This document shows positions 4,284 to 19,110 of a DNA stretch of 64,000 nt, piece by piece. This stretch comes from Verrucomicrobiia bacterium (GTDB taxonomy: Bacteria > Verrucomicrobiota > Verrucomicrobiia > Opitutales > Cerasicoccaceae), in assembly GCA_030425485.1 (NCBI GenBank), contig JAUIAM010000005.1, positions 62,001 to 126,000 of the forward strand. The letters run 5' to 3'. The notes beneath the pieces were generated by a model that worked only from the letters and a program-made list of their open reading frames with translations, searched no databases and was not told where the DNA came from. A program made the translations under genes and the position numbers. The number at the start of each line of letters is the position of its first letter. The first letter of the stretch is position 1.

Positions 4284-4323
4284 AAGCAGGTGCTGAAACA
4301 GCAGACCAGCGAAACGGGGGCCT

Positions 4324-5244
4324 TTACTTAGCCCACAGTTCCGCGTTGGGCAGGTGACGGAGAGTCTCGATGACCTCGCGTACCCGCTCGATGTCAGCAT
4401 CGTTAAAGGCACGGAAGGGCTGGGCCAGGTGACGTTCACACAGGCCGGAAACCTCCAGCGCACCCTTGATGCCCTTGATGATGCTTGAGCCGTGTTTACC
4501 GATGGTGAAGAGGCGGCAGGATAACTCCAGCACCTCGCGCTGGAGCTCGACAGCGCGCGCTTGCTCGCCCGCGCGCATCGCCTCGTAGATGGAAACGTAT
4601 AGTTTGGGGAAGACGTTGGCCCCGCCGTTGATACCACCAGAGCCGCCCGCCAGCAGGGACTCAGCCAGCAGCTCCTCGGGCCCGATCAGGAGCGTGAGGT
4701 CACGCTCAGCAATCAGGCGATGCACTTTCTTGAAGTACAGGAGATCACCGGAACTGTCCTTGAGTCCGAGGCAGTTTTCATACTGGAAAGCCTCCTCGAC
4801 CACATCGAGCGGGATGGGCAACTTGGTCAGCGCGGGCATGTTGTAGAGGAAGAAAGGCAGCGCGACGCGCTCGGCCATGTCCTTGACAAAGTCCCGGAGT
4901 TCCGGAGCTCCGGGGATAAAGTAGTAAGGCGGCGTAAAGGCTACGCTGTGTGCCCCGGCCTTGCGGGCATGCTCGGCCAGCGAAAGCGACTCGGCATAGG
5001 CGGTATCGCTGATGCTGACGATCACGGGAATGCGGCCATTGACGGTCTCGGTCACATGGTCAATGTATCGACGCCGCAGCTCGTAGCTCAGGTTGGGCCC
5101 TTCGCCGGTTGTTCCGAGGATGAAGAGGCCATGCACGCCGCCCGCGATGATGTGTTCGATCAAGCGTGAGCTGCCCTCAAAATCAAGCGTCTCGTCGGCC
5201 TTGAGAGGAGTTACTAGCGGAGGGATAATACCGTGAATCTTCAT
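4324..5244 (-). CDS. DapA/NanA-family aldolase (dihydrodipicolinate synthase-like)
   Basis: This is a class I, Schiff-base (beta/alpha)8 aldolase of about 306 residues. The GTTGE motif, the Tyr of YNMPA and the Schiff-base Lys of LKDSSGD are all present. The superfamily includes 4-hydroxy-tetrahydrodipicolinate synthase, N-acetylneuraminate lyase and 2-keto-3-deoxy sugar-acid aldolases, which all use pyruvate. The substrate cannot be settled from sequence alone. I chose the internal ATG that begins MKIHGIIPPLVTPL, where family homology starts, rather than the upstream in-frame ATG. Its convergent sugar-hydrolase neighbour slightly favours a catabolic keto-sugar-acid or sialate-type role over lysine synthesis. 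Confidence 0.85.
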   Translation of the reverse strand: MKIHGIIPPLVTPLKADETLDFEGSSRLIEHIIAGGVHGLFILGTTGEGPNLSYELRRRYIDHVTETVNGRIPVIVSISDTAYAESLSLAEHARKAGAHSVAFTPPYYFIPGAPELRDFVKDMAERVALPFFLYNMPALTKLPIPLDVVEEAFQYENCLGLKDSSGDLLYFKKVHRLIAERDLTLLIGPEELLAESLLAGGSGGINGGANVFPKLYVSIYEAMRAGEQARAVELQREVLELSCRLFTIGKHGSSIIKGIKGALEVSGLCERHLAQPFRAFNDADIERVREVIETLRHLPNAELWAK

Positions 5245-5487
5245 GAAAAAAGGAGGGTTGTAGGCAGCGCTGTTGTCCGCCTGATTTACAAGTAAATACA
5301 CTACCTCATTTCGCCGCCATCCGATAGGCCACTTTACGACGAATAGCAGTCAATACACGCCAAACATGCCAACATTTCCACTGAGACCCTCAGAGCCGCA
5401 CTCTATTTCGCGATCGAAGGAGGGGGAGATCACAGAACTCCGCGACAGAGCAGACAGCAACGCCGCAGAAGCGCTATGACTACTCCC

Positions 5488-6072
5488 TCAGGTCTTTTCT
5501 GCCTCGGCGGCTTGGATTTCTGCTTCAAAGGAGTAGATGAACCTTTTGTAGAGAGGCGGACAGATCAGCGTAAACACGACCGCGGGCCCCAGAGAAAAGG
5601 CCGGGGCGAGATTGCCCAGATACTTGGGGAGGTTGGGGTTTTGCGACAGGCAGTAGGCCAGCATGGCACCCCCGAGAAAAGCAATACACCAGAAGCCCGA
5701 AATGAGGTAGTTGATGATGTAAAAGTGCGGGTGCTCCCAGACTGCGGGCGGTGCACTGCGGCGCGCATAGCGCACGGTAAAGGGCTGCCGACGCAGGATT
5801 GATACCAGTACGAAGCTCATCATGGTGAGGTTGGCCAGAATGCCCAGGTAAGGCTCTACACGCGCCCCGCCCCAGGCTAGACCCAATAGCCCGGAGATGA
5901 GAAAAAACGTACTCGCGCCCAGATCGATGATGCCCGGGGTGTTTCTGGCCAGCATAAGCGTTGTCAACATGACCACACCTGCGGACAGGCATGCTGCCGT
6001 GGTGTAGCCCAGGGCTTGCAGCACTCCAAAGGCTACCCAAGGTAAAATTCCCGAGAGCGCATCGGCCTTCAT
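5488..6072 (-). CDS. Polytopic membrane protein of unknown function, next to the GT21 gene
   Basis: The 194-residue product is strongly hydrophobic, with about five to six membrane spans (for example LISGLLGLAWGG, NLTMMSFVLVSIL and FWCIAFLGGAMLAYCL). I recognise no named family. The start is ambiguous. A GTG at 6081 overlaps the glycosyltransferase stop as GTGA, and the ATG at 6072 lies three codons later; longer in-frame versions run antisense-like through the upstream gene and are unlikely. Coupling to the GT21-like gene suggests a membrane partner in lipid glycosylation or transfer of the product, which is inference. Confidence 0.65.
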   Translation of the reverse strand: MKADALSGILPWVAFGVLQALGYTTAACLSAGVVMLTTLMLARNTPGIIDLGASTFFLISGLLGLAWGGARVEPYLGILANLTMMSFVLVSILRRQPFTVRYARRSAPPAVWEHPHFYIINYLISGFWCIAFLGGAMLAYCLSQNPNLPKYLGNLAPAFSLGPAVVFTLICPPLYKRFIYSFEAEIQAAEAEKT

Positions 6073-6077
6073 GCTGC

Positions 6078-7226
6078 TCACCGTGCAGCCTCCTTCGCGT
6101 CGTAGCGCAGGCGAGCCCAGTAGACACCACGCCAACGAACGCCTATGGGCAACCAAACGGCCAACCATACCAACAGCCGCACGGGCGGCACCAGCGGTAG
6201 GGCCAGCAGCGAGGCGGCGCCCTTCATCCCGGCTATACGAAACGCACGGCTCAGGTAGAGGCACTCCAACCAGAGCATGACCAACAGCAGTGGAAGTGCC
6301 GTTGACAGGGGTAGTATAGCAAATCCCAGCAGAGTGAAAGCTAATGGCTGGACCAGCAATTGACAAAAATAGCCCAGCGGCTCCGTCCAGCGAATCGTTT
6401 TCTCCCAACGGTAGTAATGCGACAGGGCGGCACGGGGGCCAGTTGCCCCGGTACGGGTGGTCAGCGTGACGGTGCCGAGTCGCGACGGACTGAGTGTACG
6501 CCCGAGGAAGTTATCATCGGTGAGCTGGCGTCCGAGTTCGCCCCAGTCTACCCTTTTCTGAAAATCCTCCGCCCGGAAAAGCATGCCTGCGCCAAGGGCA
6601 AAACAGAGCTCGGGCTTGTTTCGCATCAGGGCCAAACCGGGCAACATGGTGGCATTGACAAAGGCGGCGTCGAGCAGGCTCCACACGCTCCCGGGCTGGT
6701 CGATGCGGTAGGCATAGGTCATCATGCCGCCGGGGGCAAGCCGGGCTGCATCCGCCGCGAGCGCATCCCCAAACGAAGCCGGTACCTCGATGTCCGCATC
6801 GCTCCAGAACCACAAGGGCTTGGTCGCCTCCTTAGCCAGGCAGTGCATCCAGTCCACCTTCTGGTTGATATGCAGGCCGGGCGGCGTGGCGTAGATAACC
6901 CGCAGGCACTGCTGGCTATCCGTAGCCTGGAGCGCATCGACCCAGGGCGCAAAGCGGGCCTGATCGCAAGCATGGATGCCGACAAGAAGCTCGTCCCCCG
7001 CCGCCAGATGCGGCAAGAGGCTTTCCACAGAATGCTGCCACATGGCGGCTTCGTCGTCGGATCGACAAGCGGGAAAGGCTTTAAAAAACGTGATTTCGGG
7101 ACGCGGCACCGAGGTCCCGCCCACACTGCGTTTGAGCAACGCGCGTATCTGCACCAGCGCGACCACCCACCAACAAATCGCCAACAGGCAACCCACCCCG
7201 ACGAGACTTGTCAGAAGCGCCATCAT
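6078..7226 (-). CDS. GT21-family glycosyltransferase (ceramide glucosyltransferase/HpnI-like)
   Basis: This 382-residue membrane glycosyltransferase has an N-terminal span (about 5-25), a GT-A domain and two to three C-terminal spans. GT21 landmarks are visible: a D2-type motif in WSDADIEVP, a D3-type acid in LTDDNFLGR, and YYRWEKTIRW, corresponding to the (Q/R)xxRW motif. Close relatives include HpnI, which adds N-acetylglucosamine to bacteriohopanetetrol, and ceramide glucosyltransferases. No hopanoid gene is nearby. The divergent neighbour is an HpnK-like deacetylase, so a shared GlcNAc transfer and deacetylation pathway on a polyene lipid is a reasonable inference. Confidence 0.8.
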   Translation of the reverse strand: MMALLTSLVGVGCLLAICWWVVALVQIRALLKRSVGGTSVPRPEITFFKAFPACRSDDEAAMWQHSVESLLPHLAAGDELLVGIHACDQARFAPWVDALQATDSQQCLRVIYATPPGLHINQKVDWMHCLAKEATKPLWFWSDADIEVPASFGDALAADAARLAPGGMMTYAYRIDQPGSVWSLLDAAFVNATMLPGLALMRNKPELCFALGAGMLFRAEDFQKRVDWGELGRQLTDDNFLGRTLSPSRLGTVTLTTRTGATGPRAALSHYYRWEKTIRWTEPLGYFCQLLVQPLAFTLLGFAILPLSTALPLLLVMLWLECLYLSRAFRIAGMKGAASLLALPLVPPVRLLVWLAVWLPIGVRWRGVYWARLRYDAKEAAR

Positions 7227-7402
7227 CGGGTCTTGCGCACGAACAAAGGGGCGCGGTTACTGGAGTGGAAAACAAGTGGTAGCATGCAGTAAAAAGCGTG
7301 GGTGGTTGGCAGCATGTCAGGTCTAGGTACTCGCCCTCGAACTGACGAGGACTTTTTGCAGTCTTGCCACCGCCGGGTGCCGGGTAGTAGCTGTGAAAGT
7401 GG

Positions 7403-8152
7403 ATGATGACGCGCAAGATAGTGTTTACGGCAGATGATTTCGGGCTCTCGGCAGCCACGAACGACGCGATCATGGCCACACATCTGGAAGGCGCACTCAA
7501 CGCCGCCGTGCTGATGACGCATCAGCCCGGCACCGAAGAAGCAGCCGAGTTGACACGCCAGACCCCCAGCCTGTCCGTCGGCATCCATTTTCACCTGACC
7601 GATTCCCAGCCCGCCACGCGGGAAGCCTGGCCCTGGGGCACCTCCCCCGCCGCTGCCGGCTGGGCCATCGGCCTGTCTCGCCAGGCGCGCAAGCTCATGG
7701 TCGACGAGCTCTGGACGCAATGGGTGGCCTACAAGGCCCTGAATATCCGTTGCGACTTCATTACCTTCCACCACCACCTCCACCTGCACCCCTTCATCTG
7801 GCGTGAATTGGTCCGCTTGATTGGCCCGGACTTTCCGGGCTGGGTGCGCATGCCCGTCGTCCACCACTTTGACCCCGGCCCGCAAGCCTGGTTGGCACGC
7901 ACCATCACGCGGCCCGTTCGCCACGGGCGGGCCCGCCGCAGCGGACTGCATCTCTCCGACACACTCTGGGGCGTCGACCGGACCTTTTCCATGCAGGCGG
8001 GAGAGGTCTCCCGCGCTATCAAGAGCCTGCCCGCGCACGGCATCCACGAATTCGTTTTTCACCCGCGGGAAAAAGACGATGCCGACAGCCGCTGTTTGCT
8101 TGAACTTAAACGCACCTTGACGGAAACTGAACGATTCCCCTCAGCAAAATGA
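7403..8152 (+). CDS. YdjC/ChbG-family carbohydrate deacetylase, HpnK-like
   Basis: The 249-residue protein opens with FTADDFGLS, the metal-binding Asp-Asp signature of the YdjC/ChbG/HpnK deacetylases, followed by GIHFHLT and a His-rich HHHLHLHP stretch. HpnK deacetylates the GlcNAc that HpnI attaches to hopanoid side chains; ChbG deacetylates chitobiose. Spacing and wording of the first 75 residues look more like HpnK than ChbG. It heads an operon: its stop overlaps the next start by four bases (ATGA), and the two ketosynthase genes follow. Divergence from the GT21 gene, with a 176-bp gap, makes a shared control region likely. Confidence 0.82.
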   Translation: MMTRKIVFTADDFGLSAATNDAIMATHLEGALNAAVLMTHQPGTEEAAELTRQTPSLSVGIHFHLTDSQPATREAWPWGTSPAAAGWAIGLSRQARKLMVDELWTQWVAYKALNIRCDFITFHHHLHLHPFIWRELVRLIGPDFPGWVRMPVVHHFDPGPQAWLARTITRPVRHGRARRSGLHLSDTLWGVDRTFSMQAGEVSRAIKSLPAHGIHEFVFHPREKDDADSRCLLELKRTLTETERFPSAK

Positions 8153-8886
8153 TCAAAGCAGCCACAGTACAGAGCGCGGTGAAGTCGGCAAAGACGACCG
8201 CACCCGGCTTTTGCATGGGGCGCGACAGCTTTGCCTTTGCCAACGAGACCATCTGGCACCACCCCGACCATCAGGAGAAGCGTCAGCGCAAACGCTTTAG
8301 CCGCTACTGCTTTGTCATGACACGGACTGCGCTCCAGTTTTACCGCTTCGCCCACTTCGACCCGGCGTTAGCGTGGGATGCCTTCCCCCGCAAAGAGCTG
8401 GCCCGCCGCGTGCGAACCATCGCCCGCCTCCCTCTTTACGGGTCTGAGCGTGAGCGCATCGCACTGCCGGGAGGGAATCTCTACGAAGCCAGCGAACACG
8501 ACCCCCTCCTCTTTCAGCAGAACATCGGCCGCCCCTGGACGACCTACATCCGGCTGGGCAACTGGCGGATCCTCCTGCCGGTGAGCAAGGCGCACCAGAT
8601 ACAAGCCTACGAAACGCTCATGGAGAGCCTCCGCGCAGGCATCCCGCGCCCGCTTTGGCTGATCAATTTCCCCAGCCTGGATATTAACCACGCCGTAGTC
8701 GCCTTTGCCATTGCCCGGGAGACCCCCGAGGATACCGTTATCCAAGTCTATGACCCCAACTACAGCGGCTCCGCCCGCGAGCTTCACTACAACTCACTCA
8801 CCCGCAGCTTCAGCTACTGCAGCACCTTTTACTTTGACGGCGGCCCGGTCAAAGTGAGGATACTGTATAGGCACCTCTGTGCCTGA
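8149..8886 (+). CDS. Putative papain-like Cys-His-Asp enzyme in the polyene operon
   Basis: No named family is recognised. The 245-residue soluble protein has a possible papain/C39-like triad: Cys22 in GFCMGRDSF, His181 in INHAVV and Asp202 in VYDPN (Asn204 is also there). The His-Asp spacing of 21 and the DPN turn resemble cysteine peptidases, BtrH-type acyl transferases and related N-C transferases. It is coupled to the deacetylase before it (ATGA overlap) and sits 23 bp before the active ketosynthase. Because the locus lacks a recognisable thioesterase, release or transfer of the ACP-bound chain is a testable guess. The enzyme class is inference from motif geometry only. Confidence 0.6.
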   Translation: MIKAATVQSAVKSAKTTAPGFCMGRDSFAFANETIWHHPDHQEKRQRKRFSRYCFVMTRTALQFYRFAHFDPALAWDAFPRKELARRVRTIARLPLYGSERERIALPGGNLYEASEHDPLLFQQNIGRPWTTYIRLGNWRILLPVSKAHQIQAYETLMESLRAGIPRPLWLINFPSLDINHAVVAFAIARETPEDTVIQVYDPNYSGSARELHYNSLTRSFSYCSTFYFDGGPVKVRILYRHLCA

Positions 8887-8909
8887 GTTAAACTGACTAC
8901 TACCCGCTC

Positions 8910-10130
8910 ATGAATTTCTCCCAAACACCTCCGCCCAAGGTCGTCGTGACCGGTATGGGGGCGGTCAGTGCCTTTGGTGTCGGCCTGCAAGCGCTGATCG
9001 ACGGCCTCCAACGCGGCGAGAGCGCAGTAAAGGACATTACGCTCTTTGACACCAGCGGATGTCTTTCCCACCGAGCAGCTCAGCTAGCCGAAATCGAGCA
9101 CGGCCCCATCGCACGCTCGGCCAAGATGGCGCTGCTGGCCATTGACGAAGCCATGACCGGAGCGGACCTGAAGCATCTTGAAGACGGCCTGGGAGCAAAT
9201 CGGGCCGCGGTCTCGCTCAGCACCACGGGCGGGAGCATGCATTTTTTTGAGAATTATATCCGGGAAAAAATCCAGGGACAGCCCCTGATCGGCAAGGAGG
9301 TGGCCCACTACCACCCGCAGCGGCAAACGCACGACATCCTGAGCTACCTGAACTATCAGGGGCCCTCCTCTCTCGTGGCAAACGCCTGCGCCAGTGGCGG
9401 CAACGCCATCGGGCACGGGCGAGACCTCATCCTGGCCGGACTGGCAGACCGCGTGCTCGTGGGCGCGTTCGAGGAATTGTCCGAGTTGATTTTTGTGGGC
9501 TTTGACCGCCTGCAATCCGTCACCCAAACAAGCTGCCGCTCGTTCGACAAAGAGCGGGACGGGCTCATTCTGGGCGAAGGCGCTGCCTTTCTCGTGTTGG
9601 AGTCGGAGTCCCTCGCCCGCCAGCGTGGAGCAAGCGTGATCGCCGAGATCTGCGGCTACGGACACACCACCGACACGCACCACGTGACTCAGCCTCACCC
9701 GCAGGGAACGGCCCTCGTCGGGGCCATTACCACGGCCACCCGGCAGAGTGAATCGCTCGGCTACCGCCCGTCTGAAATCGGCTATGTCAATGCCCACGGC
9801 ACGGCGACGCCGGCCAACGACCAGATCGAAGCCAGTGTCTTGGACACCTTCCTAAAGACCGTCCACTCGAACGCATCCGTGTCCTCCACCAAGCCCGCCA
9901 TCGGGCACACTCTCGGGGCGGCCGGAGCCATCGAGGCGTGCATTTGCCTGGCAACGATGCAGGGGCGTTGCCTGCCACCGCAGATCAATACCACGCAGCC
10001 GATTGAGGTCATCGCCGAACGCCTTGTCGCCGTCGGGACTACACCCAAGCCCCTGCAACAAGTGCTGAATGTTAACCTGGGGTTTGGCGGGTCAAACTGC
10101 GCCCTGCTCTTTCGTCGCTATGAAGGTTGA
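8910..10130 (+). CDS. Beta-ketoacyl-ACP synthase, catalytically complete (APE KS type)
   Basis: This FabF-like condensing enzyme of 406 residues starts VVVTGMGAVSAFG and carries the full Cys-His-His set: Cys160 in NACASGG, His296 in NAHGTATPAND and His333 in KPAIGHTLGAAGA, with the closing LGFGGSNCALL loop. It should catalyse decarboxylative condensation of malonyl-ACP with the growing chain. It is followed, with an 11-base overlap, by a degenerate ketosynthase. This pairing matches the KS/KS-like heterodimer of aryl polyene systems (ApeO with ApeC in Escherichia coli). FabF of primary metabolism would not normally be embedded in such a cluster. Confidence 0.9.
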   Translation: MNFSQTPPPKVVVTGMGAVSAFGVGLQALIDGLQRGESAVKDITLFDTSGCLSHRAAQLAEIEHGPIARSAKMALLAIDEAMTGADLKHLEDGLGANRAAVSLSTTGGSMHFFENYIREKIQGQPLIGKEVAHYHPQRQTHDILSYLNYQGPSSLVANACASGGNAIGHGRDLILAGLADRVLVGAFEELSELIFVGFDRLQSVTQTSCRSFDKERDGLILGEGAAFLVLESESLARQRGASVIAEICGYGHTTDTHHVTQPHPQGTALVGAITTATRQSESLGYRPSEIGYVNAHGTATPANDQIEASVLDTFLKTVHSNASVSSTKPAIGHTLGAAGAIEACICLATMQGRCLPPQINTTQPIEVIAERLVAVGTTPKPLQQVLNVNLGFGGSNCALLFRRYEG

Positions 10131-11127
10131 TACCCAGATGGAAATCCTGGCGGCTGGCGCCGTCTCTCCCGGTGGCCTTGGCCCGGAGCCGCTGTGTACG
10201 GATCAGCCCTGGCCCGTCGAGGAGGTAGCCTTTCCCTACACAGAAGGACAGAGCATGACTTGCGCCCGCATCGGGGCAGAGGTCCCCATGCCGCGCCACC
10301 GCCGCCTGCGGCGCACCGGACGCATCTCCCGCTACATGGTAGCCGCGACCGAAAACGCCATTGAACGACTCGGCGCACCGCTGAATACCCAGCGCATGGG
10401 TATGGTTTGCGCACTCTCGCTGGGGGGCATCGAGTATTGCCACCGTTTTTTCCAGCAGGTCGTCAAAGAAGGACAGCACTACGCCAGCCCGATCCTTTTT
10501 CCCGACACGGTTTTTAACTCTCCCGCCAGCCATCTGGCCGCGTGTCTGGAGTTCGACGGGCCCTCGTACAGCTTGATCGGCGACGAAAGCGCCTGGGTAC
10601 AGGCCATGCTCACGGCCCACACCTGGCTCAGTATTGGCACCGTGGACCAGGTGCTCCTCGTTGCCGCCACCGAGCTTGAGCCCCTGATTTTTGAAGGCCT
10701 CACCACGATGGGTTGGTGGCGACACGCCAAGCCGAAATTCCGCCCAACAGAGGGCGCCGTCGCGATGGTGCTCCAGCGTGGGAACGGCACTGGGACACAC
10801 ATTGAGACGCTCCAGCTCGGCTTCGACTACGGCTCGCCCCAGGCCCTGCGCAAGCTCCTGCCCAGCATCCGCGCGGAACTGCCAGACGATGCCCGCTACC
10901 TGCAAACGGCCCGAGATTGCTGGACACAATCCTTTGAGCAAAAATGCCTGGCTGAACTTCCACGTCATGGAGCCAGTGGACTTCCCTCGCTCAGCGGGGC
11001 GTGGTCGGCCTCCAGTGCCTGGCACACCCTGCGTTTGCTCGAAACGATGGAGTCCGGCCAGAGCTATTTTCAACCGGTTTGGGGCACGCTAAGCTCCTAT
11101 GCCGGGCTCTCCCTGCGCAAAGATTAA
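10120..11127 (+). CDS. Degenerate ketosynthase / chain-length-factor-like partner
   Basis: The 335-residue protein has a ketosynthase-like N-terminal half (PRHRRLRRTGRISRYM, then ALSLGG), but the active-site region reads LIGDESAW with no cysteine. The NAHGT and GHTLGAAGA histidine motifs are absent and the second half is shortened. It should therefore be a non-catalytic subunit of the preceding enzyme, as ApeC or type II chain-length factors are. The ATG at 10120 overlaps the KS gene by 11 bases; an ATG at 10138 is also possible. Its TAA shares three bases with the TAA of the converging ligase gene. Confidence 0.82.
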   Translation: MKVDTQMEILAAGAVSPGGLGPEPLCTDQPWPVEEVAFPYTEGQSMTCARIGAEVPMPRHRRLRRTGRISRYMVAATENAIERLGAPLNTQRMGMVCALSLGGIEYCHRFFQQVVKEGQHYASPILFPDTVFNSPASHLAACLEFDGPSYSLIGDESAWVQAMLTAHTWLSIGTVDQVLLVAATELEPLIFEGLTTMGWWRHAKPKFRPTEGAVAMVLQRGNGTGTHIETLQLGFDYGSPQALRKLLPSIRAELPDDARYLQTARDCWTQSFEQKCLAELPRHGASGLPSLSGAWSASSAWHTLRLLETMESGQSYFQPVWGTLSSYAGLSLRKD

Positions 11128-12455
11128 GCAAGGTCAAAGGCCTGTAAGACCGCCTCGCGGGTGACTTTTCCGCGGGCATCACGGGGAAGCGCGGCGCAGA
11201 GGTTGAGGTGGCGCGGCACCTGCCATGCAGGCACATGCGCGCTGAGATACGCCAGCACAGACGCGCGGTCAAGCGCTGTAGCCACCGCGGCACACAAGCG
11301 CGGGCGCGACTCGTCTCCCAGCAGGTAAACAAAAGCATCGTCAATGTCCGGATGTTGACACAGGAGTGACTCCAGCTCATCGGGTTTGAGCTTCTTGCCA
11401 TTCAGGTTGAGCAAGCGGTCCAGGCGTCCGCGCAGACACAGGCCCGCGTCGGTCAGCTCTCCCCGGTCCGGCAGCACCCACCGCTGCCCGGGCTTGGCCA
11501 CTGCGGGGCTGCTCACGGTGATCTTCCCGTCCGGCCCAATCTCGACATCAACGCCCTCAAGCGGAGTGCCCACGGCTCGCCCGGTCAGGCTCAACGCACC
11601 ATCGCGGTCGTAGCATATGCCCCCCGTTTCAGACGAACCATAGAAGTTGTGGATACGTCGCCCAAAACGTTGCTCAAAGGCCTGCGCGACCTCTGGCGAG
11701 AGCGGCGCACCGGCTGATATGCAAAGCCTGAGGGCATCCGGCAGCGCATCGACGGCCTTGGTCAGCAGACGAAAAATACCGGGTACGCTGGGCAAAACTG
11801 TAACGCCATGCTGCTCAATCCATACGGGTACTTGCCCGAGAAGGAAGCTGTCGGCATAGACGACTGCACTCCCCTGCAAGAGCAGCGGCAGCACAAGATT
11901 CCCCAAACCATAGGAAAAGCCAAAGGGGATGAGCGCGAGGTTACGGTCGCTGGGCCGTATGCCCATCGTCGCGATGATCTGCCGGCCGTCCGCGATCAAA
12001 TGACTGTCTCGGCAAGGAACGAGCTTCGGCGCCTGCGTCGAGCCAGAAGTCACCTTGCCCACGGCCCAGCCTGTGCCGAGCGAATCCTGCGGGTCGATTT
12101 TTTCCGCCCCATCCTCCGTCACCAACAGCCCCGCACCGAGGCGCGCCGCAGTCGAAGCCGCGTGCTCGCGGTTGGCCGGATCGAGCGGGATAAAAGGCCG
12201 CGGCTCTCGCGCGCAGGCCAGCAACCAGGCCAACCACAACGGGCCATTGGGCAGAGTACAGGCAACCGCCCCCTGACCGGGCTGTGCGGCAAGGGTCAAA
12301 GCCACCTGATCGATGATTTCGCTGATCTCTGCGTGATTGTGGGCGAGGCCATCTTCGGCCCGGATGAGCAGCGGCTGCCCCGCATCGCCTAGCGATGGCA
12401 GGCGCTCCCACAGGCTCCACAGGGTGTGGGTTTCGTGCACGGGGGCCTCACTCAT
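11124..12455 (-). CDS. AMP-dependent acyl/aryl-ACP ligase (ANL superfamily)
   Basis: This 443-residue adenylating enzyme shows the ANL core motifs in order: TSGSTQAPKLV (phosphate-binding loop), NFYGSSETGG, DRGEL followed by GRLDRLLNLNGKK (hinge region), and a C-terminal RGKVTRE containing the likely adenylation lysine. In aryl polyene loci the equivalent (ApeH) activates an aromatic acid and loads it on an ACP. Here it is the last gene of the ACP-led operon and overlaps the LolA-like gene by eight bases. I chose the MSEAPVHE start because family similarity begins just after it. Starter specificity cannot be read from sequence. Confidence 0.85.
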   Translation of the reverse strand: MSEAPVHETHTLWSLWERLPSLGDAGQPLLIRAEDGLAHNHAEISEIIDQVALTLAAQPGQGAVACTLPNGPLWLAWLLACAREPRPFIPLDPANREHAASTAARLGAGLLVTEDGAEKIDPQDSLGTGWAVGKVTSGSTQAPKLVPCRDSHLIADGRQIIATMGIRPSDRNLALIPFGFSYGLGNLVLPLLLQGSAVVYADSFLLGQVPVWIEQHGVTVLPSVPGIFRLLTKAVDALPDALRLCISAGAPLSPEVAQAFEQRFGRRIHNFYGSSETGGICYDRDGALSLTGRAVGTPLEGVDVEIGPDGKITVSSPAVAKPGQRWVLPDRGELTDAGLCLRGRLDRLLNLNGKKLKPDELESLLCQHPDIDDAFVYLLGDESRPRLCAAVATALDRASVLAYLSAHVPAWQVPRHLNLCAALPRDARGKVTREAVLQAFDLA

Positions 12456-13116
12456 GGCGCTGGCGAAAAGGCTCCAAATAGGCCGCATCCGGCACAACGG
12501 ATTTATCGTAGGCGCGAAACTCAAAACGCATGCCATAGCCTTGCGGGAAAGTCAGCGCAACGTGGCGCACATCGAGGCTATCCGTGGCCAGTTCCACTTC
12601 GATCATGGTGGGCAGGTGCGGGTCTTCGCCGGGCTCAAGCGTCAGCACGACACGGTAGGCATCGGGCAGCCCGTAGATACGCTCGTCGTAGCCACCCGGC
12701 AGTTGATCGATGCGGCCGTTGAACAACTCGCGCAGCATGGTTTCCATCGCGGGTTGATCGGGATCGAGCGAGGAGACTTCGACCTCGTCCTCACCGGGGA
12801 TCAATTGCGTGAGGCGGGTGCGCTCGATCAAGACAAAGGCCTCGCCCTCGTAGTCGATCAGGAGGGTATCGGGAGCCAGGTAGGCGACTTCCGCCTCGGA
12901 GACGACGGGCTGGTCTCGCGACGGGCTAATAACCGCCTGCCGCATCTGGCAGGTCAGCCCTTCGATGGCGGCCCGATTCTGCCGGAACGCAGCTTTTAAC
13001 GCTGTAACCTCACGCGCGTCGAGAGCCGTGTCTTCGCGCAGTTCGCTGGCATGAAGCACGGCACTGATCCAACATAGAGTAAGGAGTAATAAAAAAACTG
13101 GCAGTCGGTGGTTCAT
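12448..13116 (-). CDS. LolA-like outer-membrane lipoprotein/lipid carrier of the polyene locus
   Basis: The 222-residue protein starts MNHRLPVFLLLLTLCWISAV, a signal peptide ending near HASEL. What follows is a mostly beta sequence of the size expected for the LolA/LolB fold. LolA-like proteins next to MMPL exporters are standard parts of aryl polyene clusters, where they are thought to carry the lipid across the periplasm. The start is coupled to the exporter stop in an ATGA, so the longer in-frame version, which reads through the exporter gene, is not used. No lipobox is visible, which suits a soluble periplasmic carrier. Confidence 0.78.
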   Translation of the reverse strand: MNHRLPVFLLLLTLCWISAVLHASELREDTALDAREVTALKAAFRQNRAAIEGLTCQMRQAVISPSRDQPVVSEAEVAYLAPDTLLIDYEGEAFVLIERTRLTQLIPGEDEVEVSSLDPDQPAMETMLRELFNGRIDQLPGGYDERIYGLPDAYRVVLTLEPGEDPHLPTMIEVELATDSLDVRHVALTFPQGYGMRFEFRAYDKSVVPDAAYLEPFRQRHE

Positions 13117-15176
13117 GCGGATGGGGTCGATTTTTGGCGGGCACGCTGGTAAAGCAAGCCCGCTCCTGCGGTGAAACAACTGGCCGTAAAGAAGGCGGCA
13201 AAGATACCCGAAGCCAGGGTGAGACCAAAGTTTTGCAAAAGCGGAAATGAACTGAAGCCCAACGCGCCGAAGGCGATGATCGAAGTCGCTGCGGCCAGAC
13301 TGAGCGGTGGCAGTACCCAGGCCAGCGCCCCCTCCTCGGTCTGCCCCATGCATACGGGCAAAGCCACGTGGATCGCGTAGTCGAGCGCCAACCCGAAGAG
13401 AAGCGGCAGGGCCAGCACGGCAAACAGCGTGATGCCACCCCCGAGCCAACTGGCCAGCGCCGCCGTGATAGGCGCACCCACCACGAGCGTGAGCAGGATA
13501 AGCCCCGTCACGGCCACCGAGCGCGAAGCGATGAGCAAGGCGAGCGTGACCGCGCCAAGTGTCAGGCACGCGATCTGCACCAGTTCATGCGTGGCCGCAG
13601 CGGAGAGCTCAACGGGCAGTTTTTCCCACGCCTCGGCGATACTGAAGCGGTCGTAATCCAGGCCCGTTGCATGCCAGGTATCGAGTTCGCGCAAAAGCAT
13701 AACCGAGCTCAGGCTGTCCGGACGTGTAAAGCCATTCTCGCGCAGCAGCTCGAGCGCGCGCACAGTCAACGCGGGGTCCCATGACTGGCGATTCTCGGCC
13801 CGGATCGGGTCGGAAAGTTTTGCCCGCAGCATCGACTCACTTTGCCCGGCCCGAAACTGCTCCGCAAACCATTGGTCCACCTGAGCCGCCTCCAGCTCAC
13901 GCGGGATTAAGTGCTCCGGGCTGAAGTCAAACACCGTACGCCCGAGCAGGCTGAGCCCAAGCCCGCCGGCAATCAGCAAAGCTCCGCCCATGAACAGCGC
14001 GGGCTTACGTGAGAGGGCATTGACCAGTCTCGGGCTACGACCGCCGCGCAATGTTTTTTTGCCAAAGCTCCACCACTCAGGCGGGAGCAGGATAAACAGG
14101 ACGGCTGCTGCGGCCAAGCCCGCCCCGACCAGCACACTGAGTTGACGGATGCCGGGAAAGGCGGAGAGCTGCAGGGTCAGCACCGCGGCAATCGTCGTCA
14201 CCGCGCTCATGGCAATACTTCGCCGTATGCTGCGGCGTTCGTGCGCGGGGCAGTTTCCCACTGCGGCGTGATAACTGAGCAGCCCGAAGTCGATCCCCAC
14301 GCCCAGGATGACACAGCCAAAACTGATCGAGATAATGCTCAATGAGTTGTAGCAGAGCAGGCCGACCAGCAAAGCCACCGCTACGGCAATGAGTTGCACG
14401 ATAAAGATAACCAGCATCCCGCTGAGGCTGCGATAAGCCAACAGAAACAGCGCACTCACGGCCAGGAGCACAAAGCCGCTGCTCAGCACGAGGTCTTGCT
14501 TGAGCACCGTCGCGATCTGATAGTGGTAGGCCGTGCGTCCGCCCATGAGCCAACCGGATTCGCCCCGCAGGCTCTCGATGGCCTGCCCTGTGGCAAGGAT
14601 GTCGCTATCGGTACGGGTCTCGGGCTTGAGCTGCACGCGCACATAGGCCGCACCGGGCATGCTCCGGCCACCACCGGTTTCGCGCAGAAGAAAGTCACGC
14701 ATCCCGAGGGGGTCGTCCATGACCAGTGCGCTTGATCCGCTCCACATGGGGCCACGCATCTTGCGCAGGTTATCGTCCAGCGTTGCCTGTAGCGAGTCGG
14801 GCTGAAAACGCTCAACCATTTCGGCAAAAATCTCCGGCGACAGACGCTTGAGGATGGCCGCTCCGAGGAGGTGCTTTGGCACGGGCGGGTCCGTCGTGAC
14901 TTCCACCGCCGCCACGGTATCAAGCGCGCGCACCTGCGCCGCCAGTTCAGCGATGGGCAACTGCACTACCTCGCCCGGTTGAGTGCTAACCAGGAAAAAA
15001 TCCCAGTCCTCCTCCGCGCCCTCGGACGTGGCTGTCTTGAGATGGCGCACGGACTCAAGCTCTTCGGGGAAAATGGTCAGGATGTCCGTCTCGAACGTCG
15101 CCCCCCGCAACAGCAGAAGTACGAGCGCCACCGATAGGACGCTGAGCGAGAGTACGATGGCCAGCCTGCGTGTCAT
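13113..15176 (-). CDS. MMPL/RND-family lipid exporter
   Basis: This 687-residue inner-membrane protein has the two-fold MMPL layout: an N-terminal span (MTRRLAIVLSLSVLSVALVL), a large periplasmic domain, five clustered spans at about 220-400, then a second span, loop and C-terminal span cluster. It belongs with SSD/RND-type lipid exporters such as those in aryl polyene clusters. Genes for the ACP and flavoenzyme lie upstream and the LolA-like carrier follows with a four-base overlap. I start at the ATG 31 bases after the flavoenzyme stop, where the first span begins. Confidence 0.85.
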   Translation of the reverse strand: MTRRLAIVLSLSVLSVALVLLLLRGATFETDILTIFPEELESVRHLKTATSEGAEEDWDFFLVSTQPGEVVQLPIAELAAQVRALDTVAAVEVTTDPPVPKHLLGAAILKRLSPEIFAEMVERFQPDSLQATLDDNLRKMRGPMWSGSSALVMDDPLGMRDFLLRETGGGRSMPGAAYVRVQLKPETRTDSDILATGQAIESLRGESGWLMGGRTAYHYQIATVLKQDLVLSSGFVLLAVSALFLLAYRSLSGMLVIFIVQLIAVAVALLVGLLCYNSLSIISISFGCVILGVGIDFGLLSYHAAVGNCPAHERRSIRRSIAMSAVTTIAAVLTLQLSAFPGIRQLSVLVGAGLAAAAVLFILLPPEWWSFGKKTLRGGRSPRLVNALSRKPALFMGGALLIAGGLGLSLLGRTVFDFSPEHLIPRELEAAQVDQWFAEQFRAGQSESMLRAKLSDPIRAENRQSWDPALTVRALELLRENGFTRPDSLSSVMLLRELDTWHATGLDYDRFSIAEAWEKLPVELSAAATHELVQIACLTLGAVTLALLIASRSVAVTGLILLTLVVGAPITAALASWLGGGITLFAVLALPLLFGLALDYAIHVALPVCMGQTEEGALAWVLPPLSLAAATSIIAFGALGFSSFPLLQNFGLTLASGIFAAFFTASCFTAGAGLLYQRARQKSTPSA

Positions 15177-15207
15177 GAAATTTTGGATACAACCGGGATT
15201 TTGACCA

Positions 15208-16479
15208 TTATTGCAGCGGGATGCGGGGTGCGACTTTAGTGTATCGCTGGAGCCAGGTCGCGAGGTAAAAGCCCTGGATGCGCATGCGGTCCGGGAAGGT
15301 CGGGTCGAGCTTGCCCGCCAGCAGACGCCCCATGGCGGCAAAAATTTTGGGCGCGGAGTGCGGATTCATAAAGACCTCGAACCCACGCTGATCGTAGAAG
15401 GCTTTAATCATGGGCAACAGGGTATCCGCATCGCGAAAAATACTCTGCTGATAGGTCCGCTGCTCGGATGGCGTAAGCGGTGCCGTGAAGGCTTTCTTAC
15501 CGTTGAGCAAGTCTGCCGCCAGGGCTGCGCTTTTGAAAGCCAGCATCACGCCAGAGGAAAAGATGGGGTCAATGAAGTTGGCCGCGTCCCCCACGATAAA
15601 ATGACGCCGACCCGCTACGGTCTTGTAGCGCGTGGTGTAGTCGGACACCTTGCGCAACTCCCCGACCTGCTCTGCCCGTTTCATGCGAAAGCGTATCTCG
15701 GGCAGTTCGATCAGCGCCTGCGCGAAGAGCTCCTCCATGCTGGAGGCATTGGCTTTGGCCTCAGAAAGATGGCGCACCATGCCGACCGAGGTCAGCTCGT
15801 CGGAGATGGGGATAAACCAGAACCAGCCATGGTCAAAGCGCACGATGCCAACGTGGCCAGACTCCCGGCCCTCACTACGGTAGACCCCCTTAAAATAACC
15901 GAAGCAAACGATCTTGGGCGAAACGCCAAGCTCGACGCGGGGAAGCTTGAGTGCCTTTCCGACGAAGTGCCCCAGCCCGCTGGCATCGATGAGCCACGGG
16001 GCCGTCACCCGGTGCGTGGTCTCGCCCTCGGTAATCTCGACTTCCACATGGTCCTCGTGTTCGCGAAACGTTTTGGCCGATGCCCCGGTGACGACCGTTG
16101 CTCCGCGGGAACGTGCGTTCTCCAGCAGCAGGTCATCGAAGCGGGAGCGCTCGACGTTGAAAGCCGGCCCGGGTTGCTCCGCTTCGGGGAAGAACTCGGC
16201 GAAGTTCACCCGCACCATGCCTACGGAGCTGCTGGGCATAAAGTCCACTCCGAATTTTCGCACGAAGCCCTCGGCCTCAAGCCTGTCGTAGATACCCAGG
16301 CGGCGCAGTACGGCATTACCACAGGGCAGGAGCGACTCGCCTATATGAAAGCGCGGGAAGTGCTCGCGATCAATGACGAGGACTTTTCGACCAACATCCG
16401 CCAGCAGCGCCGCAGCCGTACTGCCCCCAGGGCCACCGCCGACGACGACTGCGTCCCACTTGCGATCACCTAGCTTCAT
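15208..16479 (-). CDS. Flavin-dependent halogenase-like oxidoreductase
   Basis: The 423-residue enzyme has an FAD-binding GGGPGGSTAA near the start, FPRFHIGESLLP, a GWFWFIP segment matching the WxWxIP signature of tryptophan-halogenase-type enzymes, and GDAANFIDPIFSSGV for the second flavin contact. Related proteins chlorinate or brominate carrier-bound aromatic or acyl substrates (CmlS-type), but some family members are reductases or hydroxylases. Xanthomonadins are brominated aryl polyenes, so halogenation of the product here is plausible. The gene lies six bases after the ACP gene, consistent with an ACP-tethered substrate. Confidence 0.8.
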   Translation of the reverse strand: MKLGDRKWDAVVVGGGPGGSTAAALLADVGRKVLVIDREHFPRFHIGESLLPCGNAVLRRLGIYDRLEAEGFVRKFGVDFMPSSSVGMVRVNFAEFFPEAEQPGPAFNVERSRFDDLLLENARSRGATVVTGASAKTFREHEDHVEVEITEGETTHRVTAPWLIDASGLGHFVGKALKLPRVELGVSPKIVCFGYFKGVYRSEGRESGHVGIVRFDHGWFWFIPISDELTSVGMVRHLSEAKANASSMEELFAQALIELPEIRFRMKRAEQVGELRKVSDYTTRYKTVAGRRHFIVGDAANFIDPIFSSGVMLAFKSAALAADLLNGKKAFTAPLTPSEQRTYQQSIFRDADTLLPMIKAFYDQRGFEVFMNPHSAPKIFAAMGRLLAGKLDPTFPDRMRIQGFYLATWLQRYTKVAPRIPLQ

Positions 16480-16485
16480 AGACGG

Positions 16486-16746
16486 CTAATCGTCCAGCTT
16501 ACGCAGGAGCCATTCCTTGAGCGCACTCAGATTCTTCAGAGCGTGCGTCGCCTCTTCGGCCCCGGAAAATTTGACCCCATAGGCTTTTTCCACGCCAACG
16601 GTCATTTGCAGAACATCGAGCGAATCCAGCCCGACGCCGCGTGGGCCCAGCAGTTCGGTCTGGGGACCGATCTCATCCTCGGAGACCTCAAGCATACAGT
16701 TTTCGATAAGTATTTCTTTAAGTTTATCGATAGAAACCTCAGTCAT
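16486..16746 (-). CDS. Acyl carrier protein of the polyene locus
   Basis: This is a small acidic protein of 86 residues with the phosphopantetheine attachment site Ser42 in GVGLDSLDVLQM. It would hold the starter and the growing chain for the ketosynthase pair. It is the first gene of a tightly packed operon continuing with halogenase-like enzyme, exporter, carrier and ligase. I used the ATG of MTEVSIDKL because the longer reading adds a non-ACP stretch. A single ACP is found here, whereas E. coli-type aryl polyene loci have two. The upstream 500 bp holds two palindromic elements that could influence its promoter. Confidence 0.88.
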   Translation of the reverse strand: MTEVSIDKLKEILIENCMLEVSEDEIGPQTELLGPRGVGLDSLDVLQMTVGVEKAYGVKFSGAEEATHALKNLSALKEWLLRKLDD

Positions 16747-16791: not shown

Positions 16792-16940
16792 GGCGTTGTT
16801 TTCGAAGGAAACGATGTCGGCCTATAAGGCCCTTCACGACTTCTTTCCTTTTTCTCGGCACGTGAATCTAGATTCACAGCACCTCGAAGCCGTAAGAAGA
16901 CCGCTTTCAAACTCATTTCAGATATTGAAAACACCACCTG
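16792..16940. repeat. MITE-like hairpin element, decayed copy A
   Basis: It is centred on the perfect 16-bp palindrome GTGAATCTAGATTCAC at 16862-16877. The outer ends are diverged inverted repeats (GTTTTC near 16798 against GAAAAC near 16927). The stretch right of the palindrome matches copy B (GATTCACAGCACCTCGAAG against GATTCACACCACTTCGAAAG). No open frame of interest lies inside. The copy lies directly upstream of the ACP gene and could act as operator or transcription barrier. Confidence 0.6.
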
Positions 16941-17105: not shown

Positions 17106-17270
17106 CTAGGCCGTGTCTTCAAATTCATCAAGGTCGGTAGAAAAGGGTCTTTTCGCGTCTTTTTCCGTTTCCTCAGTTCATGAATCTGGATTCACACCAC
17201 TTCGAAAGCCGAAAAAATCCTCAAAATTACCTCTTTTTCCCTCGTTTCTTAATTTGAAGACACTGCCTAG
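17106..17270. repeat. MITE-like hairpin element, copy B with 20-bp terminal inverted repeats
   Basis: The ends are CTAGGCCGTGTCTTCAAATT at 17106-17125 and its complement, with one mismatch, at 17251-17270. The exact centre holds TGAATCTGGATTCA, and the two halves are partly complementary throughout, so a long imperfect hairpin can form. CTAG at both borders could be a target duplication, as some IS5-type elements make; that assignment is uncertain. The right border supplies the TAG stop of the ABC ATPase gene. Together with copy A this accounts for most of the 520-bp gap between the ACP and ABC genes; the remaining 165 bp between the copies shows nothing recognisable. Confidence 0.68.
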
Positions 17271-18049
17271 CCTCTGGGGGCGATCAGCATGCTGACCAAG
17301 CCGTCGGGGTGGACATACTTGGTCGCGCGGACTTCAAAGACATCGCTCACGCGCTCCTCCGTCAGCACTTCCAGGGTGGGCCCGCTGGCATTGACCTGAT
17401 TCTGGTGGAGCAGGACAGTCTCATCGGCGTAGGCCAGGGCCAGGTTGAGCTCGTGCAGCACGGTGAGCACGCCAACGCCTTCGTTGGCCAGTTGACGGGC
17501 AATCTGTAGTGTGCTGTGCTGGTGGGCTAGGTCGAGACCAGCCACGGGCTCATCCATGAGCAGGTAGCGGGGCTCGTCACTGGGCTCGCCAATCTGGGCC
17601 AACACACGGGCCAGGTGGACGCGTTGGCGCTCGCCGCCGGAGAGCTGCAGGTAGCTACGGTCGACAAAGTCCCCCAAGTCAACCTGCTCAAGCGCGCGCT
17701 GGCAGATCTCGCGATCGTGGGTCGTCTCGGCCCCTTTGACATGCGGGCTGCGGCCCATCATGACGACATCGCGCACGGAAAAATTAAAGGCCAGGGTCGG
17801 GGTCTGCGGGAGAACGGCACGCTTGCGAGCCAGAGCCAGCGGTTGCCAGTCAGCCACGGGCTTGCCGTCAAAGGCCACTTGGCCACTGCTGGGGTGAAGT
17901 TCACCGGAAATGGTTTTCAGGAGGGTGGACTTGCCCGCGCCATTGGTGCCCAGCAAGGCTACGACCTTGCCCGGTTCGACCGAAAAGCGAATCGAGTCGA
18001 GGACTTTTCGCGTCGGGTAGGAGAAAGATACATCGTTGATTTCGAGCAT
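17267..18049 (-). CDS. hmuV: Hemin/siderophore ABC transporter ATP-binding protein
   Basis: The 260-residue ATPase has Walker A GTNGAGKST, signature LSGGERQRVHLARVL and Walker B YLLMDEPVAGLD, followed by the switch His in VLHELNL. These match the HmuV/FecE group that energises import of hemin or ferric siderophores. The start lies two bases after the permease stop. The longer upstream reading runs through the permease gene and is discarded. No periplasmic binding protein or TonB receptor gene is beside it, so the exact substrate is uncertain. The stop codon lies within the border of a mobile-like repeat. Confidence 0.88.
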   Translation of the reverse strand: MLEINDVSFSYPTRKVLDSIRFSVEPGKVVALLGTNGAGKSTLLKTISGELHPSSGQVAFDGKPVADWQPLALARKRAVLPQTPTLAFNFSVRDVVMMGRSPHVKGAETTHDREICQRALEQVDLGDFVDRSYLQLSGGERQRVHLARVLAQIGEPSDEPRYLLMDEPVAGLDLAHQHSTLQIARQLANEGVGVLTVLHELNLALAYADETVLLHQNQVNASGPTLEVLTEERVSDVFEVRATKYVHPDGLVSMLIAPRG

Positions 18050-18051
18050 GA

Positions 18052-19110
18052 CTAGAGGGCGAAACGACGTTTCTGGGCCATTAAGAGAAAGAGGAAGAAC
18101 GGACCGCCAATGAGCGCCGTGAGAATGCCGATCTGCAACTCCGCCGGTGCCACCAGCGTGCGTGCCCCAAAGTCGGCCAGGAGGAGGGTGGCCGCCCCCA
18201 ACACACACGAACCGGGCAGCAGCCAGCGGTGGTCCGGCCCCAGCGTCAAGCGCACCATATGGGGAACAACGAGACCGATAAAGCCGATGATGCCGCACCC
18301 AGCCACCGTTATTCCGACCATCGCGGCGCTGATAAAGATCAGGATACGCTTAACCGTCTGCACGGAGACGCCGAGCTGGAAGGCCTCGCTCTCACCCAGA
18401 AGGAAGGCGTTCAGCGCCCGCCCCTGTCGCAAAATGTAGAGAGAACCGGCAACGGCCACCCCTGTCACGGTCAGCGCGCTTTGCCAGGTAGCGCCCATCA
18501 GGCTGCCCAACGTCCAAAACGTAATGCTGCGGATCTGCGCATCATCGGCAAAGCGCGTCACAGCAAAGCCAATCAAAGCCGCTGCCAGCGCATTGACCGC
18601 AATCCCCGTCAACAGCATCGTAGCAATGTGGGTGCGCCCGCCGATACTTGACAGTCGGTAGATGAGAAAAGTCACCCCTACCCCGCCCGCAATGGCAAAG
18701 GTGGGTAAGGCATACTGCACAAAGTCCGGCAAAGTCTGCGCAATGACCCCTCCAAGCAGGATGGCCAGCACACCACCCGCAGCCGCGCCGCTGGATACCC
18801 CGATGATGCCCGGGTCGGCCAGCGGATTGCGAAATAACCCCTGCATGACCGCACCGGACAGCGACAGACTTGCCCCCACTGCTGCGGCCATAATGACCCG
18901 CGGCATGCGCAAATCCCAGATCACGGTTCGCGAGAGCGCATCGGGCTCTGTCGAACTGAGCGAGAGCTTGTAGGCCAGTACCTCAAAAAGCTTGGCCAGC
19001 GGGATTTCTGCCGTGCCAAAGACGAGGTTTGCCCCCGCCGCCAGGAGGGCAAGAACGCCGAAAAAAATCAATAGCGCGGTGCGCGCAGGTGTGCTTCGTA
19101 ACGGAGACAT
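18052..19110 (-). CDS. hmuU: FecCD/BtuC-family ABC transporter permease
   Basis: This 352-residue polytopic protein has the FecCD hallmark sequence around LRMPRVIMAAAVGASLSLSGAV... followed by QGLFRNPLADPGIIGVSSGA, and about ten membrane spans ending at LLMAQKRRFAL. It forms the membrane channel for hemin, B12 or ferric-siderophore import with the ATPase encoded two bases downstream. The hemin assignment rests on the sister ATPase and is tentative. The gene begins 53 bases downstream of the response regulator stop on the same strand and may be read through from it. Confidence 0.86.
   Translation of the reverse strand: MSPLRSTPARTALLIFFGVLALLAAGANLVFGTAEIPLAKLFEVLAYKLSLSSTEPDALSRTVIWDLRMPRVIMAAAVGASLSLSGAVMQGLFRNPLADPGIIGVSSGAAAGGVLAILLGGVIAQTLPDFVQYALPTFAIAGGVGVTFLIYRLSSIGGRTHIATMLLTGIAVNALAAALIGFAVTRFADDAQIRSITFWTLGSLMGATWQSALTVTGVAVAGSLYILRQGRALNAFLLGESEAFQLGVSVQTVKRILIFISAAMVGITVAGCGIIGFIGLVVPHMVRLTLGPDHRWLLPGSCVLGAATLLLADFGARTLVAPAELQIGILTALIGGPFFLFLLMAQKRRFAL

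Follow-up and report, generated by a model that had tools for sequence, protein, structure and literature searches.

The gene cluster at positions 5,488–16,746 of a 64,000-nucleotide stretch of DNA from a Verrucomicrobiia bacterium (hereafter the window: positions 62,001–126,000 of contig C57, 225,709 bases, in the 3.81 Mb, 98% complete genome assembly GCA_030425485.1) raises the question of what a family GT21 glycosyltransferase and a YdjC-type N-deacetylase, a pair resembling the hopanoid enzymes HpnI and HpnK, are doing beside ketosynthase (KS), ligase and transport genes of the kind found in aryl polyene (ape) clusters. The answer that we favor, with a little more confidence than doubt, is that this is a compact and probably acquired aryl-polyene-type cluster in which GT21 and YdjC would act as the amino-sugar module on a glycolipid.

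The gene content, homologies, linkage and module alternation reported here were observed directly. All genes named in a preliminary description of the locus are open frames, and its account of the gene content and of two converging operons with overlapping stops agrees with the Pfam and profile matches and with the overlap at 11124–11127, where the KS-like gene ends (11127) and the ligase stop begins (11124). Eleven genes are present: a membrane protein gene and the GT21 gene on the minus strand; YdjC, an operon gene absent from that description and here called UNK, KS and a KS-like gene on the plus strand; and a second, converging minus-strand group comprising an acyl carrier protein (ACP), a halogenase-like flavoenzyme, an MMPL exporter, a LolA-like protein and an AMP-forming ligase. 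The YdjC/HpnK-like N-deacetylase gene (7403–8152, plus strand, with its ATG at 7403 or 7406; PF04794, 6.3e-33) does head the KS operon, as first described, and the gene for the proposed amino-sugar transferase (6078–7226, minus strand; PF13506, 2.8e-19), an HpnI-like GT21 of a separate subfamily, diverges from it at a distance of 176 bp. Spacing is operon-like, several start/stop pairs overlapping or almost adjoining.

As a yardstick for the core we used the DNA of the E. coli CFT073 ape cluster, together with profiles built from relatives of the window genes (E-values are for a nominal 5000 sequences). The KS (8910–10130, plus strand; PF00109/PF02801), in which Cys-His-His is intact (NACASGG, NAHGTATP and GHTLGAAG by eye), matched ApeO at 4e-74; the ligase (11124–12536, minus strand, likely start 12455; PF00501, 6.7e-35) matched ApeH at 2e-29; the MMPL/RND exporter (13113–15176, minus strand; PF03176, 5.7e-8) matched ApeM at 2e-47; the LolA-like carrier (12448–13116, minus strand), which by itself matched no Pfam model, corresponded to ApeL at 9e-13; and the ACP (16486–16746, minus strand, with a DSLD serine motif; PF00550, 9e-6) corresponded to ApeE at 4e-18. 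The aryl-polyene-like core proposed at the outset is thereby borne out. The window KS is 33% identical to ApeO across 320 residues (7e-49), but the KS profile scores the host's own FabF higher (6e-110) than ApeO, so KS homology alone is weak evidence and the combination with ApeH, ApeL and ApeM is more telling. The chain-length-factor-like KS partner (10120–11127, plus strand; PF00109, 2.3e-6) is without the active-site Cys, reading SLIGDESAW at the expected position by eye, and its profile did not match ApeC. From these matches the core is ape-like in gene content, with a KS partner of what looks to be a different lineage.

How widely GT21 and YdjC recur was followed by genome searches that covered the class (286 genomes), the order (273 genomes) and chosen genomes; many of the fetched stretches were 20 kb or shorter or stopped at contig ends, which makes absences on stretches weak. 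KS-like matches at E≤1e-5 were present in 110 of the 286 class genomes, 13 of which had nothing better than 1e-8. Strong GT21 matches (E≤2.7e-41) were confined to 17 class genomes, host included, below which came a gap to 7.5e-23 (G136) and then 23 genomes at 3e-15 to 5e-11. UNK was found in all 17 strong-GT21 genomes (47/286 overall) and the KS-like gene in 15, the exceptions being G048, with its GT21 on a contig of 15.5 kb, and G121, whose contig ends inside the KS. On the fetched stretches GT21 was accompanied by UNK in 14/17 cases, by YdjC in 11/17 and by at least one cluster-type gene in 16/17; G126, with nothing clear nearby, is the exception, while G154 has GT21 with a ligase, a dehydratase (DH), LolA, MMPL and a NodB-type deacetylase, and G187 has it with a NodB-type deacetylase only. 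Among 26 named UNK-bearing stretches, GT21 was seen on 8, YdjC on 10 and KS on 10. Since the same GT21/YdjC–KS arrangement recurs in other genera and families, the linkage is not a matter of chance.

Close relatives carry a different set of genes (module B), made up of a GT2 glycosyltransferase, a NodB-type polysaccharide deacetylase and a PlsC-type acyltransferase (AT). The module-B GT2 profile matched the N-terminal half of ApeJ (2e-65) and the PlsC-type AT profile matched ApeD (5e-47), and the profile of an LpxL-type acyltransferase seen in many loci matched the C-terminal half of ApeJ (4e-21). The window locus has no ApeJ-type GT2/acyltransferase, and the host has no module-B GT2 match at E≤1e-15. 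To place the modules we used a KS tree, built by a quick method from one KS per locus (profile bits >200, length >330, fused KS cut to 450 residues), in which FabF and ApeO bring 86 locus rows to 88 and from which loci with a truncated KS or none are omitted (e.g. L066, L083, L094, L095, L117, L153, L159–L165). A clade of 29 rows (SH-aLRT, an approximate likelihood-ratio branch support, 99) has the window KS at its base, the long branches of the window KS (1.3), ApeO and L158 leaving exact placements unsure. Within this clade GT21 or YdjC occurs on 11 stretches, GT2/AT with the NodB-type gene on 10, neither on 8 and both on none; among all 101 labelled stretches the counts are 15 for GT21/YdjC, 22 for GT2/AT and again none for both. 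One locus, L065, is mixed, having GT21 and UNK, no YdjC and a NodB-type gene ~9 kb away. GT21 loci (L100, L121) and a GT2 locus with a NodB-type gene (L114) also lie outside the clade, and when mapped onto the starred branches of the full tree the labels call for a minimum of five changes for GT21/YdjC (module A) and of three for module B, from which it follows, on the evidence of this tree, that modules have been gained, lost or exchanged several times.

The preliminary description had staked its proposal on the KS pair keeping company with GT21/HpnK genes. Relatives with the pair and without those genes do exist: strong GT21 matches accompany the KS-like match in 15 of 110 genomes. Of the 18 KS-clade rows that lack GT21/YdjC, 10 carry module B. 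Two transferase/N-deacetylase pairs that are unrelated to each other yet occur in clusters of one type point to the same head group, a hexosamine with a free amine, and this alternation is the strongest argument for the amino-sugar head group that we infer. We conclude that, in a glycolipid cluster of aryl-polyene type, GT21 and YdjC appear to form an alternative amino-sugar module.

The substrates, order of steps, product and function that we propose would be as follows. The ligase would load an acid starter onto the ACP, and the KS/KS-like pair would extend the chain with reduction and dehydration borrowed from host fatty acid enzymes, after which the flavoenzyme may halogenate it. GT21 would transfer an N-acetylhexosamine, most likely N-acetylglucosamine (GlcNAc), to the lipid or a precursor, YdjC would deacetylate the sugar and so expose a free amine, and LolA and MMPL would carry the glycolipid to the outer membrane. 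GT21 and YdjC would here play the part taken by the ApeJ-type GT2 and the NodB-type deacetylase in sister clusters. The amino-sugar polyene lipid of the preliminary description survives in part: the ape core and the ApeJ-like GT2/N-deacetylase in the same place speak for the lipid and its sugar, and the polyene nature is retained as a conditional element.

Several observations weigh against this reading. Besides the unmatched ApeC, the locus (5.4–16.8 kb) has no ketoreductase (KR), DH, methyltransferase or LpxL-type acyltransferase gene, and since the locus is without a DH, the FabA/ApeI-like DH on 19 of the 29 KS-clade stretches (KR on 1) counts in the same direction. Because KR and DH are missing we call the locus ape-like and not an ape cluster, and "aryl" and "polyene" are applied to its product by inference from sequence. 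Two sets elsewhere in the host could supply the missing reduction and dehydration, namely a KR-ACP-KS (FabG/FabF-like) region on contig C28 and a second ACP, FabA-like dehydratase and KS on contig C17 (L002:8055-10869 and 11902-12663). With the module-B GT2 profile, a GT2 near the latter set reaches 78.5 bits (ApeJ, 218), and L179, one of the 26 named stretches, holds GT21, YdjC and GT2 together; this stretch and the host's weak C17 GT2 slightly lower our confidence. In G084 GT21 is not accompanied by YdjC, and a NodB-type gene lies ~9 kb off. Nor are the modules mutually exclusive at the level of whole genomes, as an ApeJ-like GT2 (E<1e-30) is present in 6 of the 17 strong-GT21 genomes, which hold both (one more at 2e-16, 10 none). 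The same GT2 is present in 16/16 others searched, comprising 10/10 module-B clade genomes, G165, whose KS locus has a NodB-type gene, and 5/5 f14 g63 genomes, which show no module at the KS locus; 6/17 versus 16/16 gives a Fisher value of 9e-5, uncorrected for kinship and with G018, which has neither, left out. Lastly, hopene cyclase occurs in 17/17 GT21 genomes (16 over the cut-off, with G084 in pieces on two contigs) and HpnH is over its cut-off in 15/17.

These last two counts belong to the main rival, hopanoid decoration, by which GT21 and YdjC would be hopanoid enzymes that make bacteriohopanetetrol glucosamine and merely lie next to genes of the polyene cluster, possibly with shared use of the MMPL exporter. 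According to passages of PMC12583986, HpnI attaches GlcNAc to bacteriohopanetetrol and HpnK then takes off the acetyl group, so that the reactions themselves suit this rival. So does the distribution of hopene cyclase, present in 17/17 GT21 genomes against 6/10 module-B genomes in which it is over the cut-off (Fisher 0.012, uncorrected for kinship), as do an HpnA-like sugar epimerase that just precedes GT21 in three relatives scanned (249–271 bits, cut-off 368; L065:12829-13857, L079:5897-7204, L100:12746-13870; the window has none) and the lack of a second GT21 match in the host at E≤1e-10, which leaves no other HpnI candidate. Family models nevertheless set the window enzymes apart. The window GT21 scores 91 bits with the HpnI model (TIGR03472, cut-off 310) and three relatives 102–137, whereas four HpnI-like proteins from this class score 287–316, with one over the cut-off; the window YdjC scores 117 bits with the HpnK model (TIGR03473, cut-off 232.6) and two relatives 132 and 147, whereas a canonical HpnK beside one HpnI-like protein reaches 256. 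In a GT21 tree, which omits the G052 fragment, the polyene-linked set (16 rows) is split from seven HpnI-like proteins by a 100/100 branch. The GT21 contig differs from the hopene cyclase contig, or its G084 pieces, in 17/17 genomes and from the HpnH contig in 15/15 with HpnH over the cut-off, both counts being weakened by draft contigs. Hopene cyclase is also found in genomes without the GT21 module at the locus (5/5 f14 g63 genomes and 3/3 congeners); the three congeners have hopene cyclase and HpnH and are missing the KS-like gene, and the two tested for GT21 have none. The MMPL protein scores 71 bits with HpnN (cut-off 752). Taking both sides together we regard hopanoid decoration as unlikely, and the amino-sugar module of the polyene-type cluster as likely recruited from hopanoid-type enzymes in hopanoid producers.

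A second rival accepts the sugar genes and disputes the chain that they decorate, which would be a lipid other than a polyene, such as a reduced or poly-keto aryl lipid. The absence of KR and DH at the locus and of KR from all but 1 of the 29 clade stretches would fit such a product, but the FabA/ApeI-like DH on 19/29 of the same stretches and the host's ACP-FabA-like-KS set (C17) and KR-ACP-KS region (C28) count against it, and we consider the non-polyene product quite improbable.

UNK (8149–8886, plus strand; 245 residues) had no hit in Pfam or NCBIfam at E≤0.001 and no sequence match in the PDB. Two overlapping alignments (24 rows) show invariant C54, N180-H181 and D202, and Cys22 of the window protein was rejected as the catalytic residue on the grounds that Cys54 is the invariant one. 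In a predicted structure (predicted local distance difference test, pLDDT, 85.9) a helix starts at 54, a strand starts at 180 and a strand ends at 201, which would set the Cys, His and Asp in papain order at the expected elements; we take this Cys/His/Asp(Asn) order with these elements to be the papain arrangement. Foldseek returned nothing significant for the model (best E 0.21). The top rows from VIA-align were mostly papain-like, with streptopain at Z 8.7 (162 residues at 4.5 Å), staphopain at 7.0 and the ComA peptidase and CtaG both at 6.0, a Z of 7–8 being typical of models that have no clear match. A papain-like fold is likely from the model, and UNK may serve as a peptidase, amidase or acyltransferase. 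The structure alignment drew on 23 of the 26 named loci (L185, L195 and L201 left out), several of which are the same contigs as loci with G handles and hence not independent. All 26 named relatives are titled Verrucomicrobiota, six of them Methylacidiphilales or Methylacidiphilum. UNK homologues without a KS occupy 16 of the 26 named stretches, including some in Spartobacteria and other groups (L186–L189, L191–L199), so the UNK family is wider than the cluster. UNK was also considered as the E. coli ApeA lipoprotein and rejected, no profile match being found.

We give little credence to a further extension, in which UNK would acylate the amine that YdjC exposes; together with GT21 and YdjC it would fully replace GT2, the NodB-type deacetylase and the ApeD-like AT and give an amide-linked polyene glycolipid. 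The distribution within the KS clade favors it (UNK on 12 of the 29 stretches, ApeD-like AT on 10, both on none). A signal-like hydrophobic stretch that precedes the domain in 16/24 aligned rows, though not in the window's and with many frame starts unsure, would place many UNK proteins outside the cytoplasm, which counts against acylation by UNK, as do the occurrence of UNK beside GT2 in another KS clade (L102–L104, L142, L146, L150) and the 16/26 named UNK stretches with no KS.

The KS-like gene was found in 1/273 order genomes, that of the host, and in none of three congeners and six further family members, so the cluster was probably acquired. In congeners G122 and G208 one gene from either flank has a counterpart of 69–77% identity, which ties the contig to the genus; a clean empty site was not found in these congeners, the flanking genes lying at 2.74 and 1.98 Mb in G122 and on separate contigs in G208. 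The best identities seen for the cluster proteins are 26–48% (KS 48, ACP 48, UNK 46, ligase 44, flavoenzyme 41; KS-like at most 43 over part of its length; GT21 at most 37 over its length; LolA and MMPL 26–27 against one relative), which suggests an unsampled donor. The GC content of the cluster is 61% against 59–60%, and GC and GC at third codon positions (GC3) are like those of the remaining window, so the cluster is not set apart by composition. A chance neighbourhood or assembly artefact, for which the lack of the KS-like gene in the other 272 of 273 order genomes might speak, is very improbable given that the arrangement recurs in other families, the flanks are 69–77% identical in G122 and G208, and GC and GC3 fit the window.

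The remaining parts of the locus are the flavoenzyme and the membrane protein. We take WxWxIP and a conserved Lys to be the sites of FADH2-dependent halogenases. The halogenase-like flavoenzyme (15208–16479, minus strand; PF04820, 1.5e-30) has halogenases as its closest PDB relatives (8zop, ChlB4, PltA, CmlS), and its GWFWFIP and GFVRKFG align with the corresponding sites of 8zop and ChlB4. The membrane protein (5488–6111, minus strand; 207 residues), distantly VC0807-like (VC0807_fam, 22.5 bits, cut-off 65), is encoded by a gene that overlaps the end of the GT21 gene, and its homologues adjoin the chain-length factor (CLF) gene in two module-B loci, L085 and L086; a correspondence to ApeG was rejected, with no profile match and no family in common. 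A palindrome, TGAATCTAGATTCA, is located at window positions 16863–16876, 117 bp upstream of the ACP operon, and a near copy of it at 17181–17194, 435 bp upstream. TGAATCTAGATTCA gives four strand matches at two places versus 0.06 expected, and the pair is a possible operator; a repeat search upstream of the ACP found none. The flanks at window positions 1776–5301 and 17267–19110 hold a glycosyl hydrolase family 2 gene, a DHDPS-family gene and, by eye, apparent ABC ATPase and permease genes.

Relatives of the locus differ from it in further respects. Many have a DH, an LpxL-type acyltransferase and a HydE/PylB-like radical S-adenosylmethionine (SAM) gene, all of which the window locus is without. 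The radical SAM gene is on 16/29 KS-clade stretches (e.g. L079:16613-17635, L082:11837-12898, L086:7318-8325, L092:11128-12144) and has no good counterpart in the host (best 3.8e-7); as a candidate HpnH or HpnJ it was rejected, the four scanned being HydE/PylB-like (HydE 199–211 bits, cut-off 254.6; HpnH at most 29). In family f12 the KS and KS-like proteins are fused in one open reading frame (ORF) of ~750 residues (L079:8415-10667, L081:8278-10533, L084:9862-12123), and the MMPL ORF at L066:11611-15000 encodes 1129 residues versus 687 in the window and may carry a fused acyltransferase domain.

Some aryl polyenes are linked to GlcNAc by ApeJ (passages of PMC8776678), so the head-group idea is not new, contrary to the novelty that the preliminary description implied; the swap of sugar enzymes appears to be. 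Aryl polyenes and YdjC were not found together in the literature searched, and aryl polyenes and hpnK had no co-mention among the matches listed. In the passages concerned, PMC7356697 mentions aryl polyenes solely as something that might explain a yellow colour, and PMC9865893 gives, without gene names, an aryl polyene cluster called by antiSMASH in an isolate of Verrucomicrobiota; the outer-membrane anchor of E. coli aryl polyenes had yet to be identified as of 2021 (passages of PMC8253772). We regard the locus as a real case of an alternative amino-sugar module, conserved and informative, within verrucomicrobial clusters of the aryl-polyene type, whose chemistry and polyene nature are put forward provisionally. 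If two unrelated pairs do alternate, this would argue independently that the lipid requires a de-N-acetylated amino sugar, and would supply defined genes for testing. GT21/YdjC genes need not imply hopanoid decoration, which is a caution for annotation.

Among known systems that bear comparison with the locus, CtaG of closthioamide biosynthesis is, we presume, amide-forming, and the aryl polyene lipid of Xenorhabdus is reportedly the subject of a 2020 preprint by Grammbitter et al. CtaG (PDB 9qvj and others) has a papain-like fold comparable to that predicted for UNK (Z 6.0); UNK differs in having no PDB sequence match and in the signal-like N-terminus of many of its homologues. The hopanoid HpnI/HpnK pair, as described in passages of PMC12583986, shares with the window a GT21, a YdjC-type deacetylase and, as we propose, a glucosamine-type head, but the window pair falls well under the family cut-offs, occupies a separate branch and is linked to KS genes, and window-type GT21/YdjC were not found beside hopene cyclase or HpnH. 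In the Xenorhabdus lipid, as cited in the passages of PMC8776678, GlcNAc is likewise joined by a glycosyltransferase; there ApeJ makes the linkage, whereas for the window a GT21 with a deacetylase is proposed. With the apeA-R cluster of E. coli CFT073 (passages of PMC8253772) the window locus has in common a KS, a degenerate KS partner, an ACP, an acyl-ACP ligase, LolA and MMPL. It is without the ApeJ GT2/acyltransferase, ApeD, ApeK, KR, DH and methyltransferase, and has instead GT21, YdjC, the gene with the predicted papain fold and the halogenase-like enzyme, in a smaller number of genes arranged as two converging operons.

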